From: Exiguobacterium sp. J17977
GTDB lineage: Bacteria; Bacillota; Bacilli; Exiguobacteriales; Exiguobacteriaceae
Direction: 5' to 3'
DNA length: 64,000 bases
Assembly (NCBI RefSeq): GCF_018616375.1
Contig: NZ_JAEQBB010000002.1
Coordinates: forward strand, 310,001-374,000
Below the pieces are notes generated by a model that was given only the letters and a program-made list of their open reading frames with translations, did not search any database and had not been told where the DNA came from. The position numbers and the translations under genes were made by a program. Position 1 is the stretch's first letter; every line of letters begins with the position of its first letter. Shown here piece by piece: positions 11,811 to 13,733 of this stretch.

Positions 11811-11845
11811 AAAAAAGCCGTACTTACGCGAACGTATCGTACAGC
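11811..11845 (-). terminator. Probable intrinsic terminator of the MecA-family gene
   Basis: On the minus strand an imperfect stem (11817-11829 with 11833-11845), with a UUCG-type loop, is followed by a run of T. The stem includes the last codons of the gene. Confidence 0.6.
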
Positions 11846-12405
11846 TGTTTCACGGCCTGTTCAGTTTGAATCGTCTTGCCGTACTCCATCATGACGTACG
11901 GACTGACGGTCGTCGTTCGACCGTACTCCGACAAGATGGCGGCCAGTCGTTCTTCCACGTCTGGTTTGAGCACCTCGACAAAGTGCAGATAATATCGTCC
12001 CTCGTAATGATAGAACGCTCCGCCCTGCTCGGTGTCTCGCATATGTGGGAACAAGCGAATCGAGGCGTTGATGACGTCCTCGATATCGTCAAATTGATAA
12101 ATCAAATGATGAATCACGTCGATGGTGAGCCGAATCTCGACTTGCTCTTGATCCGACTCTGCTACGGGCGCATCGACTTTCTGGACGTCGATGACGAGCC
12201 CGTCACGGGGAAACATCGTCACGTTCAAGTCGACGGTCCCTTGCGGCATGAAGCCAAATTCCGCTTCCGCCGTCTCAAGCAATTCCCGCCACAGGTCTTG
12301 ACCGCTCTCCCCCACGATGGTATCGATGGCGATGCCTCGAGTGGATAGGTCGCTCGCGGTCAAATATACCCTTAAATGTTCTTTTGTTTGCTTTTCAAAT
12401 CTCAA
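11824..12405 (-). CDS. ypbH: MecA-family adaptor protein (YpbH/MecB type)
   Basis: Protein of 193 residues in the negative regulator of genetic competence (MecA) family. Known members are adaptors that bring substrates to the ClpCP protease. An N-terminal substrate-binding region begins RFEKQTKEHLRVYLTASDL, an acidic linker follows, and a C-terminal ClpC-binding domain includes YHYEGRYYLHF and ends with a conserved EYG segment. The start is a TTG 8 bases after GGAGG. The position next to gudB and ddl matches B. subtilis ypbH rather than mecA. Which Clp substrates it delivers cannot be read from the sequence. Confidence 0.82.
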   Translation of the reverse strand: MRFEKQTKEHLRVYLTASDLSTRGIAIDTIVGESGQDLWRELLETAEAEFGFMPQGTVDLNVTMFPRDGLVIDVQKVDAPVAESDQEQVEIRLTIDVIHHLIYQFDDIEDVINASIRLFPHMRDTEQGGAFYHYEGRYYLHFVEVLKPDVEERLAAILSEYGRTTTVSPYVMMEYGKTIQTEQAVKQLYDTFA

Positions 12406-12466: not shown

Positions 12467-13324
12467 TCAAATCGTTGACAACCACTCGGTCCACGCCTCG
12501 GGCGTGTCCCCGAGGAAGGCCGATCCGAATTCGGACGCTTGAAGGCTGACCGCGTAACCACCGGCCCCGATGACGAGGTTCGGGTGGTCGGCTTGGATGA
12601 ACTGCATCGCGTCTTTCAGGCCATCGAGATGTTCTGTCAACGTACATGAGAAAATCAGACACTTGGCATCGATATCGTGCAACGCCTCGTTCAAATCCTC
12701 TTTCGGGAATCCCGCACCGAGGAAAATCACGTCATAACCGTATTGGCGTAAGTAAAGCGTCACGAACAAGAGCCCGATTTCATGCATCTCGCCCGGGGCA
12801 CAGACGCAAATGATGCGCGGCAAAAAGGGATTCATCGGCATTTGGAGCGAGAGCGTCGATAGACGGGCACGCAAAAAGGCCGTCGCAAAATGTTCATGCG
12901 CAATCGTGATCGTCCCATTCTCCCAACGTGTCCCGATTTCCATCAATAACGGACCGATGATATCTTTCGTAACCTTTTCAAAACTGAACGTATTAAAGGC
13001 ACGATTAATCAAATCGTGCGCCTTACGTTCATCAAATGAAAGTAACGCCTCGAGCAACCCGTCCATGAGCTCCTCGTCATAAAGGCGGGCAGGCTTCGGC
13101 TTCGGGGCTTCATGTAGCTGTTGAATTGCTTGGGATACGGTCAATCCTTCCCGTTGTTTTTCAACGACCCATTTTATCTTCTCGACGTCTTGGTCGGAAT
13201 ACAATCGATGACCCGAATCTGTCCGGCTCGGAACGATGAATTGATAGCGTCGTTCCCACGCCCGGATCGTGGTCGGGTTGACTCCGGTGAGTGACGCGAC
13301 CGTCTTGATGGAGTACTTCGGCAC
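12467..13324 (-). CDS. litR: MerR-family B12-binding regulator, LitR/CarH photoreceptor type
   Basis: Regulator of 285 residues. An N-terminal MerR winged helix (1-70, with NPTTIRAWERRY) is followed by a four-helix cobalamin-capping domain and a C-terminal B12-binding Rossmann domain. The diagnostic W-x9-EH motif is present (Trp134, Glu144, His145), as is the lower axial ligand signature GEMHEIG (His181). In CarH and LitR proteins adenosylcobalamin makes a dark tetramer that represses DNA, and light breaks the Co-C bond and releases it. The residue after the motif Trp is Glu135, where T. thermophilus CarH has the His that becomes the second cobalt ligand. The GTG start has AAAGGAGGGG 6 bases upstream. 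Confidence 0.9.
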   Translation of the reverse strand: MPKYSIKTVASLTGVNPTTIRAWERRYQFIVPSRTDSGHRLYSDQDVEKIKWVVEKQREGLTVSQAIQQLHEAPKPKPARLYDEELMDGLLEALLSFDERKAHDLINRAFNTFSFEKVTKDIIGPLLMEIGTRWENGTITIAHEHFATAFLRARLSTLSLQMPMNPFLPRIICVCAPGEMHEIGLLFVTLYLRQYGYDVIFLGAGFPKEDLNEALHDIDAKCLIFSCTLTEHLDGLKDAMQFIQADHPNLVIGAGGYAVSLQASEFGSAFLGDTPEAWTEWLSTI

Positions 13325-13359
13325 AGCAGCCCCTCCTTTCCTACTAGTTCTTCTCTTTC

Positions 13360-13365
13360 AGTATA
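13360..13365 (-). promoter_or_regulatory. Candidate -10 element of litR
   Basis: TATACT on the minus strand lies about 35 bases upstream of the litR GTG. No good -35 is found 16-18 bases further up (AGGTAA at 13383-13388 is the nearest), and the direct repeats start just beyond. This would suit a repressible promoter. Confidence 0.45.
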
Positions 13366-13394
13366 GACCCATCTGTACGGCTTTACCTGTTTTA

Positions 13395-13440
13395 TTGTGC
13401 AAATCTTGTGAGAAATTGGTGAGATTGTGCATATTCACAA
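13395..13440. promoter_or_regulatory. Candidate LitR operator: three 11-bp direct repeats plus a dyad
   Basis: GTG triplets recur at 13397, 13408 and 13419 with an exact 11-base period. They sit inside TTGTGCAAATC, TTGTGAGAAAT and TGGTGAGATTG. A dyad follows (TTGTG at 13425-13429, CACAA at 13436-13440). The array begins just upstream of the inferred litR promoter. CarH-type tetramers are known to bind tandem 11-bp repeats, so this is a likely autoregulatory operator. Confidence 0.6.
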
Positions 13441-13456
13441 CCTCGGGCACGAAATC

Positions 13457-13486
13457 ATAAAAAAAATACGACGTTCTCGTCGTATT
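13457..13486 (-). terminator. Intrinsic terminator after the YpbE-like gene
   Basis: A perfect 9-bp stem (13465-13473 with 13478-13486, tetraloop) is followed on the minus strand by a run of T, 2 bases after the stop codon. It insulates litR from recS read-through. Confidence 0.88.
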
Positions 13487-13488
13487 GT

Positions 13489-13692
13489 TTAGAAAAAGAT
13501 GTCATGACGACCTATATATAAAAATACAAGAATAATGGCAAACATCGTCAGTGTAAGCATCATGGCGAGCGGCCGCTTCAGCCAGTTGTCGTTCAATTTC
13601 TCTTTTCGCTCATGCTCTTGCCGTTCAGCGCGAGATGGCAACGTGTCCACCACTTGTTCACGAAGTGAGTCCGCTTGATTCCGATGTCGCAA
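13489..13692 (-). CDS. Small single-pass membrane protein, possible truncated YpbE
   Basis: Protein of 67 residues. A charged N-terminal half contains a TLPSRAERQEHERK segment, one transmembrane helix follows (about residues 43-60), and the tail is very short. It sits between recS and litR, where B. subtilis has ypbD and ypbE. The charged region before the helix recalls the N-terminus of YpbE, a membrane-anchored LysM protein, but no extracellular LysM domain follows and a strong terminator comes right after the stop. GGAGGGC-like bases precede the start. The function is unknown and the YpbE link is only a suggestion. Confidence 0.6.
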   Translation of the reverse strand: MRHRNQADSLREQVVDTLPSRAERQEHERKEKLNDNWLKRPLAMMLTLTMFAIILVFLYIGRHDIFF

Positions 13693-13733
13693 CGTGTGCC
13701 CTCCTTTACCTTTTTTATCATTTTACTATGATA

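Follow-up and report, generated by a model that had tools for sequence, protein, structure and literature searches.

A class I LitR of Exiguobacterium and its putative target, the promoter of an Spx/MgsR-family gene

We infer that the LitR protein encoded in a 64,000-nucleotide stretch of the Exiguobacterium sp. J17977 genome (the window hereafter), loaded with adenosylcobalamin (AdoCbl), binds tandem 11-bp repeats before an Spx/MgsR-family gene, represses it in the dark and releases it in the light, a reading to which we give a probability of roughly two in three. In the dark, LitR with AdoCbl would assemble through its B12 domains and bind repeats of the form nAnnTnnACAn; in the light, the Co-C bond would break, the assembly would fall apart and the DNA would be freed. 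The target in Exiguobacterium would be the Spx/MgsR-family promoter, where the last repeat, TGTACA, is the -35 element itself, so that LitR binding would shut out RNA polymerase; under light, the level of an Spx-type redox/stress regulator would therefore go up. The proposal draws on the family and residues of the protein, its fold model, conservation of the repeats, the geometry of the promoters and synteny.

The protein had been called a light sensor of the LitR/CarH type in a first-pass annotation, with a MerR domain and with Trp134, Glu144, His145 and His181 as key residues. The domain and all four residues are present, and the call itself is borne out by the Pfam domains, a match to Thermus thermophilus CarH (TtCarH), the residues and a fold model. 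The features concerned are the following.

12467..13324, minus strand: litR, class I LitR/CarH-type MerR-cobalamin regulator of 285 aa, with a GTG start at 13324 and the stop at 12467.
13121..13315, minus strand: MerR-type winged-helix DNA-binding domain (aa 4-68; Pfam MerR_1, 58.8 bits).
12851..13063, minus strand: B12-binding cap, a four-helix bundle (aa 88-158; Pfam B12-binding_2, 61.2 bits), with Trp134, Glu144 and His145.
12527..12817, minus strand: Rossmann-type B12-binding domain (aa 170-266; Pfam B12-binding, 58.4 bits), with the lower axial ligand His181.

All three Pfam domains lie above cut-off on one chain, and a single full-length copy of litR was found in the genome. With phmmer, LitR matches T. 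thermophilus CarH/LitR over its full length (E 3e-41), and the TtCarH residue opposite His181 in the alignment is likewise a His, numbered 177 in the literature. The light-response signature, described as GxxW, EH, GxxH and GxxxP (PMC11796333), is complete in the window protein: G131-x2-W134, E144-H145, G178-x2-H181 and G203-x3-P207. The GxxW-x9-EH motif and the lower His recur in 30/30 orthologues of the same and the sister genus, 29 of them read with one pattern and L015 separately; W, EH and lower His are invariant in an author-chosen alignment (A2) of 39 of the 80 listed loci (best 80 of 581), from which six ligand-less Bacilli were left out. The AlphaFold model (mean pLDDT 91.6, pTM 0.69) has 5c8d as its top Foldseek match (E 1.7e-19), and its B12 part superposes on TtCarH structures with Z about 22 and 2.1-2.5 A, the photocobilin 8j2w tying with them for this part; over the full chain the rmsd rises to a large 6-14 A, owing to a different placement of the DNA-binding part. 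The NCBIfam CarH equivalog NF052513 yields 175.7 bits against a cut-off of 400, and the protein is therefore filed as a class I LitR rather than a CarH equivalog, the class names (class I, class II) being those of PMC9758184. Judged by sequence, residues and predicted fold, its assignment as an ordinary class I LitR, of the CarH-type AdoCbl photoreceptor-repressor family, is well supported; it presumably binds AdoCbl and responds to light, and the same genome carries a gene for a cob(I)alamin adenosyltransferase.

Full-length orthologues occur in 19/19 same-genus (own included) and 18/18 sister-genus genomes of the 61 compared; identities of 81-100%, like the named relatives among the best 80 of 581 homologue loci, point to Exiguobacterium. 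For wider comparison we used the best 80 of 581 LitR homologue loci, 32 of which are Bacilli. In a midpoint-rooted tree of 47 rows (the window protein, TtCarH and 45 of these 80 loci, best 80 of 581), all 33 Bacilli rows fall into a single clade (100/98), in which six Exiguobacterium rows (100/96) stand beside 27 other Bacilli (99/99); to judge from this topology, inheritance of litR looks vertical.

No crt or photolyase gene adjoins litR, as the first-pass annotation had remarked, and its supposition that other targets lie elsewhere proved a good guess. The genome does hold a crt cluster (the other crt names assigned by eye) and two photolyase-family genes outside this neighbourhood; no array was found in the crt upstream regions, inspected by eye and by scan, or at the two photolyase genes, one match at L050 sitting between two convergent genes. 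Control of carotenoid genes is usual for class I LitR, though it does not define the class. The best candidate target lies outside the window, on another contig: the promoter belonging to an Spx/MgsR-family gene (G000:C21:188082-188465, G000 being the own genome), whose product reaches 115.7 bits against NCBIfam TIGR01617 (cut-off 75). Three TnnACA units with at most one mismatch occur at 22 places in the genome, against 10 for the reversed control, and one of them lies before this gene. The sole exact one of the 22 stands before an ORF that by eye looks like dnaA, therefore probably represents DnaA boxes, and was rejected. The exact pair TGTACA-N5-TGTACA has a single place in the genome, before the spx gene, and its control has 0 in this genome. 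Across 37 genomes it occurs in 24 (15/19 of the same genus, 4/4 of the sister genus and 5/14 further ones), and the control gives one match each in 6/37. In all 19 matching Exiguobacterium genomes the pair is found at the spx promoter, with a second place elsewhere in G007, G014 and G022; the same-genus genomes without it (G003, G004, G012 and G013) have one unit changed. Allowing one mismatch removes any excess over the control (3 vs 4 in G000, 9 vs 7 in G010, 4 vs 5 in G020); G000's other two places, the five G010 places that were read and L220 lie inside ORFs, and one coding place (L222, L229) is common to G000 and G010.

A search for the Spx/MgsR protein in the 37 genomes gave 30 loci, 23 of them from Exiguobacterium (19 same genus, 4 sister genus). 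With their promoters lined up by the -10 (TATAAT/TATAGT), 23/23 have TnnACA at the -35 position and once more 11 bp above it, the -35 unit lying 17 bp from the -10 in 21/23 and 18 bp in 2/23. Only four departures from TGTACA are seen (upper unit TGCACA twice and TATACA once, -35 unit TATACA once), all falling in the free nn of TnnACA. Same-genus promoters have the layout TTGTACA, gap unit, second unit, -35 unit, the last two 11 bp apart; the first two full units (DR1-DR3) are 22 bp apart in 14/19 and 21 bp in 5/19, own genome included. The units of this layout were located by the T..ACA pattern, which is circular as to conservation, whereas the 23/23 count is anchored on the -10. Sister-genus promoters carry three TGTACA units in succession at 11 bp. 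Four-unit scores against dinucleotide shuffles reach p<=0.05 in 20/23 and p<=0.02 in 18/23 of the spx promoters, that of the own genome having p = 0.065; the three other Spx/ArsC-like genes of this genome have no significant array (best p 0.07). Outside Exiguobacterium, 6/7 spx homologues among the 30 loci have no significant array, including those of G047 (the best homologue, in a genome with LitR ligands intact) and of G043 and G048 (LitR ligands lost); these homologues may not be the same paralogue. Three full TnnACA units at 11-bp spacing precede the spx homologue of G050 (L190), a genome in which no LitR was found.

We connect LitR with these repeats because the published CarH repeat and operator layout fit them. 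The CarH repeat consensus is nAnnTnnACAn (PMC8156234); the Myxococcus xanthus CarH operator runs DR1-dr2-DR3-DR4-dr5 with the -35 inside DR4, and Bacillus megaterium operators overlap the -35 or the -10 (PMC9304148); in class II LitR sites, footprinting gives T(G/A)TACA as the core (PMC9758184). Among the open-access papers searched, none combines CarH, Spx and light, and, judged by title among the matches listed, none deals with LitR targets in Exiguobacterium. A B. megaterium CarH paper reportedly describes, in its abstract, a six-repeat operator before an spx gene.

Several further sites deserve mention in their own right. Before a DUF2487 gene (L067, G000:C2:300131-300158) stand TACACA, TTCACA, TTCATA and TGCAAA, two full and two degenerate 11-bp units. 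At L196, in G038, TTGTACAAAAGGTGTACAAAC, near the sister-genus spx operator core, precedes the gene of a secreted-looking protein; the LitR-like protein of that genome lacks EH. A terminator-like sequence separates the spx gene from a T2SSE-family (comGA-like) gene downstream (L166), and the candidate target therefore adjoins a possible competence-pilus gene. Upstream of a second Spx gene (L231, before G000:C12:315109) we noted ATTATTATAATTAA, which resembles a PerR box; given this likeness, Spx paralogues may be under different control.

The TGTACA repeats might instead be owned by another regulator, either a repressor that binds palindromes or a response regulator of the OmpR type that likewise uses 11-bp repeats; we regard this as possible, if unlikely. 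TTGTACAA is a palindrome and, TGTACA being palindromic, another dimeric regulator could use the site; 11-bp direct repeats are also used by regulators of the PhoP/WalR (OmpR) type. Moreover, G050 has an array with no LitR found, so that TnnACA arrays are no proof by themselves. Yet the four departures from TGTACA, a small number, are all in the nn positions, breaking the palindrome but not the CarH consensus, and the layout of the promoter matches that described for CarH operators.

The first-pass annotation had placed the operator elsewhere, before litR itself, where it noted GTG at 13397, 13408 and 13419 with an exact 11-bp period, followed by TATACT with a poor -35. These elements are all there: the spacing is exact, the TATACT occupies 13365..13360 and no good -35 accompanies it. 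What it overlooked is an invariant element within the same promoter, and the features of this region are thus as follows.

13360..13365, minus strand: TATACT, the -10 of the litR promoter, with no recognisable -35; TATACT/TATAAT in 30/30 relatives at fixed distance from GCACA.
13390..13402, minus strand: invariant element TTGCACAATAAAA, whose GCACA is separated from the downstream -10 by 30 bases; in 19/19 same-genus promoters.
13395..13421, no strand assigned: 11-bp array, reading TTGTG, TTGTG, TGGTG on the plus strand and TGCACA, CTCACA, CTCACC on the minus strand.
13467..13488, minus strand: terminator-like hairpin followed by a T run, seen by eye, which separates the litR promoter from a small gene upstream.

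The small gene (window 13492-13722, minus strand), placed between recQ and litR, is a membrane-protein-like ORF; its 3' end shows conservation within the genus, and the hairpin comes after it. As to the array, GTG-N8-GTG-N8-GTG occurs once in the 64-kb window, both strands counted, with 0-2 occurrences for each of the periods 7-15; TTGTG-N6-TTGTG with at most one mismatch has 6 matches against 2.9 expected (10/100 shuffles reach 6), and the three-unit pattern with at most three mismatches has 2 against 1.3 expected (43/100 shuffles reach 2), the match at litR having only one mismatch. By these shuffle and period counts the array is mildly unusual, not strong. Of its sense-strand units, CTCACC, CTCACA and TGCACA, only the last fits nAnnTnnACAn, and scored against mononucleotide shuffles the promoter has p = 0.12 with three units and p = 0.32 with four. 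A genome-wide search for TTGTG-N6-TTGTG gave 10 places against 7 for the reversed pattern, in incoherent contexts; and among 19 same-genus and 11 sister-genus litR promoters (the latter from loci in 11 of the 18 sister-genus genomes), the three-CAC spacing is kept in 5/19 and 0/11, that is, in only 5/30, lack of conservation in relatives having been named in advance as a refutation. Thus, of the CarH-type operator before litR, the array and one fitting unit stand; the array is weak and most relatives have not kept it.

The element GCACA-N30-TATA(A/C)T, by comparison, is present in 30/30 of these promoters (19 same-genus, 11 sister-genus), and in L087, from a deeper species of the sister genus, GCGCA is found at the identical distance of 30. 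The TGCACA unit of TTGCACAATAAAA matches the CarH repeat consensus, and from its sequence the site is a candidate for either a residual LitR half-operator or an activator site. Across both strands of the own genome, TTGCACAATAAAA with at most one mismatch was found 7 times against 4 for the reversed-pattern control, and TGCACA-N28-31-TATAMT 4 times against 3, the other three being unconvincing as promoters.

If TTGCACA-N30-TATACT were an activator site, for instance one where Spx works together with the C-terminal domain of the RNA polymerase alpha subunit, a loop would result in which LitR represses spx and Spx activates litR. The promoter has no -35, the distance is fixed in 30/30, and same-genus litR promoters have GCA followed by CAATAAAA, comparable to the B. 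subtilis Spx element; in B. subtilis, Spx works at an AGCA (-45 to -42) that precedes an A-run, and no contact was detected at -35 (PMC2801614). However, by our estimate the GCA lies about 3 bp too far upstream, and the A-run is missing in the sister genus; we consider such a site rather improbable.

We hold no higher opinion of the original proposal that LitR represses its own gene through the array at 13395-13421 and is released by light. The exact 11-bp spacing and the promoter-proximal unit, which fits the CarH repeat, speak for it, as do the litR promoters of other Bacilli. There, we scored four 11-bp units in the 160 bp before litR against dinucleotide shuffles at the 32 Bacilli loci (best 80 of 581), bearing in mind that rows within a genus are not independent. 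Four-unit arrays at p<=0.02 were found at 13/21 intact-ligand non-Exiguobacterium loci, 0/6 ligand-less loci and 0/5 Exiguobacterium loci (best 80 of 581), and in 13/13 cases the array runs into TTT(A/G)CA, the -35, 17-18 bp before the -10; the other 8/21 (best 80 of 581), including Priestia megaterium L109, have no array by score. With 13/21 intact-ligand promoters (best 80 of 581) carrying arrays, a self-operator appears common in the Bacilli group; this predicted operator accompanies intact B12 ligands, and in Exiguobacterium it has decayed or is absent. Against the proposal, the Exiguobacterium array lies upstream of the -35 position without covering it, its spacing is lost in most relatives, and in score the promoters of this genus are indistinguishable from shuffles (p 0.11-0.99). 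To judge by these comparisons, one repeat unit survives in the litR promoter, and self-regulation there is probably weak at best.

The residue following the motif Trp bears on the photochemistry. At the position of TtCarH His132 the window protein has Glu135, correctly noted before as a possible sign of different photochemistry; the last photocycle step is plausibly different, but this is not new, Glu being usual in Bacilli. Ligands are intact at 26 of the 32 Bacilli loci (from the best 80 of 581), with Glu after the Trp at 24 of them, Lys at one and Arg at one, which makes Glu ordinary for a Bacilli LitR. Light-responsive relatives with Arg, Gln or Tyr at this position have already been described (PMC11796333). 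For TtCarH H132A, one study found a mostly tetrameric protein in light, and the same paper cites an earlier report that the variant disassembles (PMC10442372). Glu135 bars bis-His photochemistry of the TtCarH type, not membership in class I LitR. The remaining 6/32 Bacilli loci (L110, L112, L118, L121, L138 and L149; best 80 of 581), orthologues at the same locus, each lack at least one ligand; all six are without the Trp, 5/6 also without EH or His ligands, and they are scattered over three places of the tree. B12-independent LitR thus seems to have emerged more than once, and no significant array precedes the gene at any of the six loci. That the Exiguobacterium protein binds cobalamin but has lost light control, serving as a B12-status reader or a constitutive regulator, we consider very doubtful, for although His132 is replaced, H132A stayed mostly tetrameric in light in one study (PMC10442372) and ligands have gone in three places of the Bacilli tree (6/32 loci, best 80 of 581), W, EH and lower His are kept in 30/30 orthologues of two genera, and relatives without His132 still respond to light (PMC11796333).

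The favoured reading, light control of spx by LitR, gains a wider context from the neighbourhood of litR, for which one more feature is needed.

11824..12405, minus strand: mecB/ypbH-like ClpC adaptor gene, directly downstream of litR (Pfam MecA, 88 bits).

The NCBIfam model "genetic competence negative regulator" gives this gene 132 bits, below its cut-off of 224; by place and by this sub-threshold match, the MecA-family gene is best described as mecB/ypbH-like. It adjoins litR at 30/32 Bacilli loci (best 80 of 581), 29 on the same strand by tblastn and L123 by blastp; no such neighbour was found at L095 and L102 among the 32. Upstream recQ and downstream gudB likewise recur in Bacilli loci. 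B. subtilis presumably has the same neighbourhood without litR. Its Spx activates mecA and ypbH (PMC5506225), which makes a link between light, Spx and Clp attractive; the neighbourhood alone does not show such a link. We advance only tentatively a broader hypothesis: that the core job of Bacilli class I LitR would be light control of the Spx-Clp quality/redox axis, not of carotenoids, with LitR repressing spx/mgsR in the dark, litR standing beside a ClpC adaptor gene of a kind activated by Spx in B. subtilis, and Exiguobacterium litR joined through an activator-type site, in place of a self-operator, that would close a light-redox circuit. If the favoured reading is right, B12 light sensing in Gram-positives would extend from pigment genes to a general redox/stress regulator, and the prediction is sharp and cheap: at one promoter with a few repeat units, LitR would bind in the dark and come off under green light. 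That litR and mecB/ypbH keep recurring side by side in Bacilli also suggests that light sensing and Clp proteolysis have long been linked. The first reading is thereby corrected, the operator worth testing being on another contig and not before litR.

Among known systems, T. thermophilus CarH/LitR (5c8d, 5c8e, 3whp) resembles the Exiguobacterium protein in its three-domain order, W-x9-EH and lower His, and in sequence and fold; the Exiguobacterium protein differs in having Glu for His132, with about 33% identity over the structural alignment, and its gene has no multi-unit operator over its own -35. The class II LitR proteins PplR1/PmlR2 of Pseudomonas (PMC9758184) share the LitR-type MerR DNA-binding part and the T(G/A)TACA core, but lack a full B12 domain, work with a LOV protein and have half-sites spaced by N12 rather than 11-bp tandem repeats. 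The M. xanthus CarH/CarA operators (PMC9304148), with DR1-dr2-DR3-DR4 and the -35 inside DR4, are laid out like the same-genus Exiguobacterium spx promoters, the DR1-DR3 spacing in the own genome being 21 bp instead of 22; they serve carotenoid genes, whereas no such array was found before crt here. The Bacillus/Priestia megaterium CarH-LitR, represented by P. aryabhattai L101 and P. megaterium L109, belongs to the same clade and has the same order of recQ, litR, mecB/ypbH and gudB. Identity to the window LitR is 41% for L101 and 38% for L109; L101 has four perfect units before litR and Glu after the Trp, L109 two good units, no significant array and Arg. The B. megaterium CarH-LitR is said to control an spx gene.
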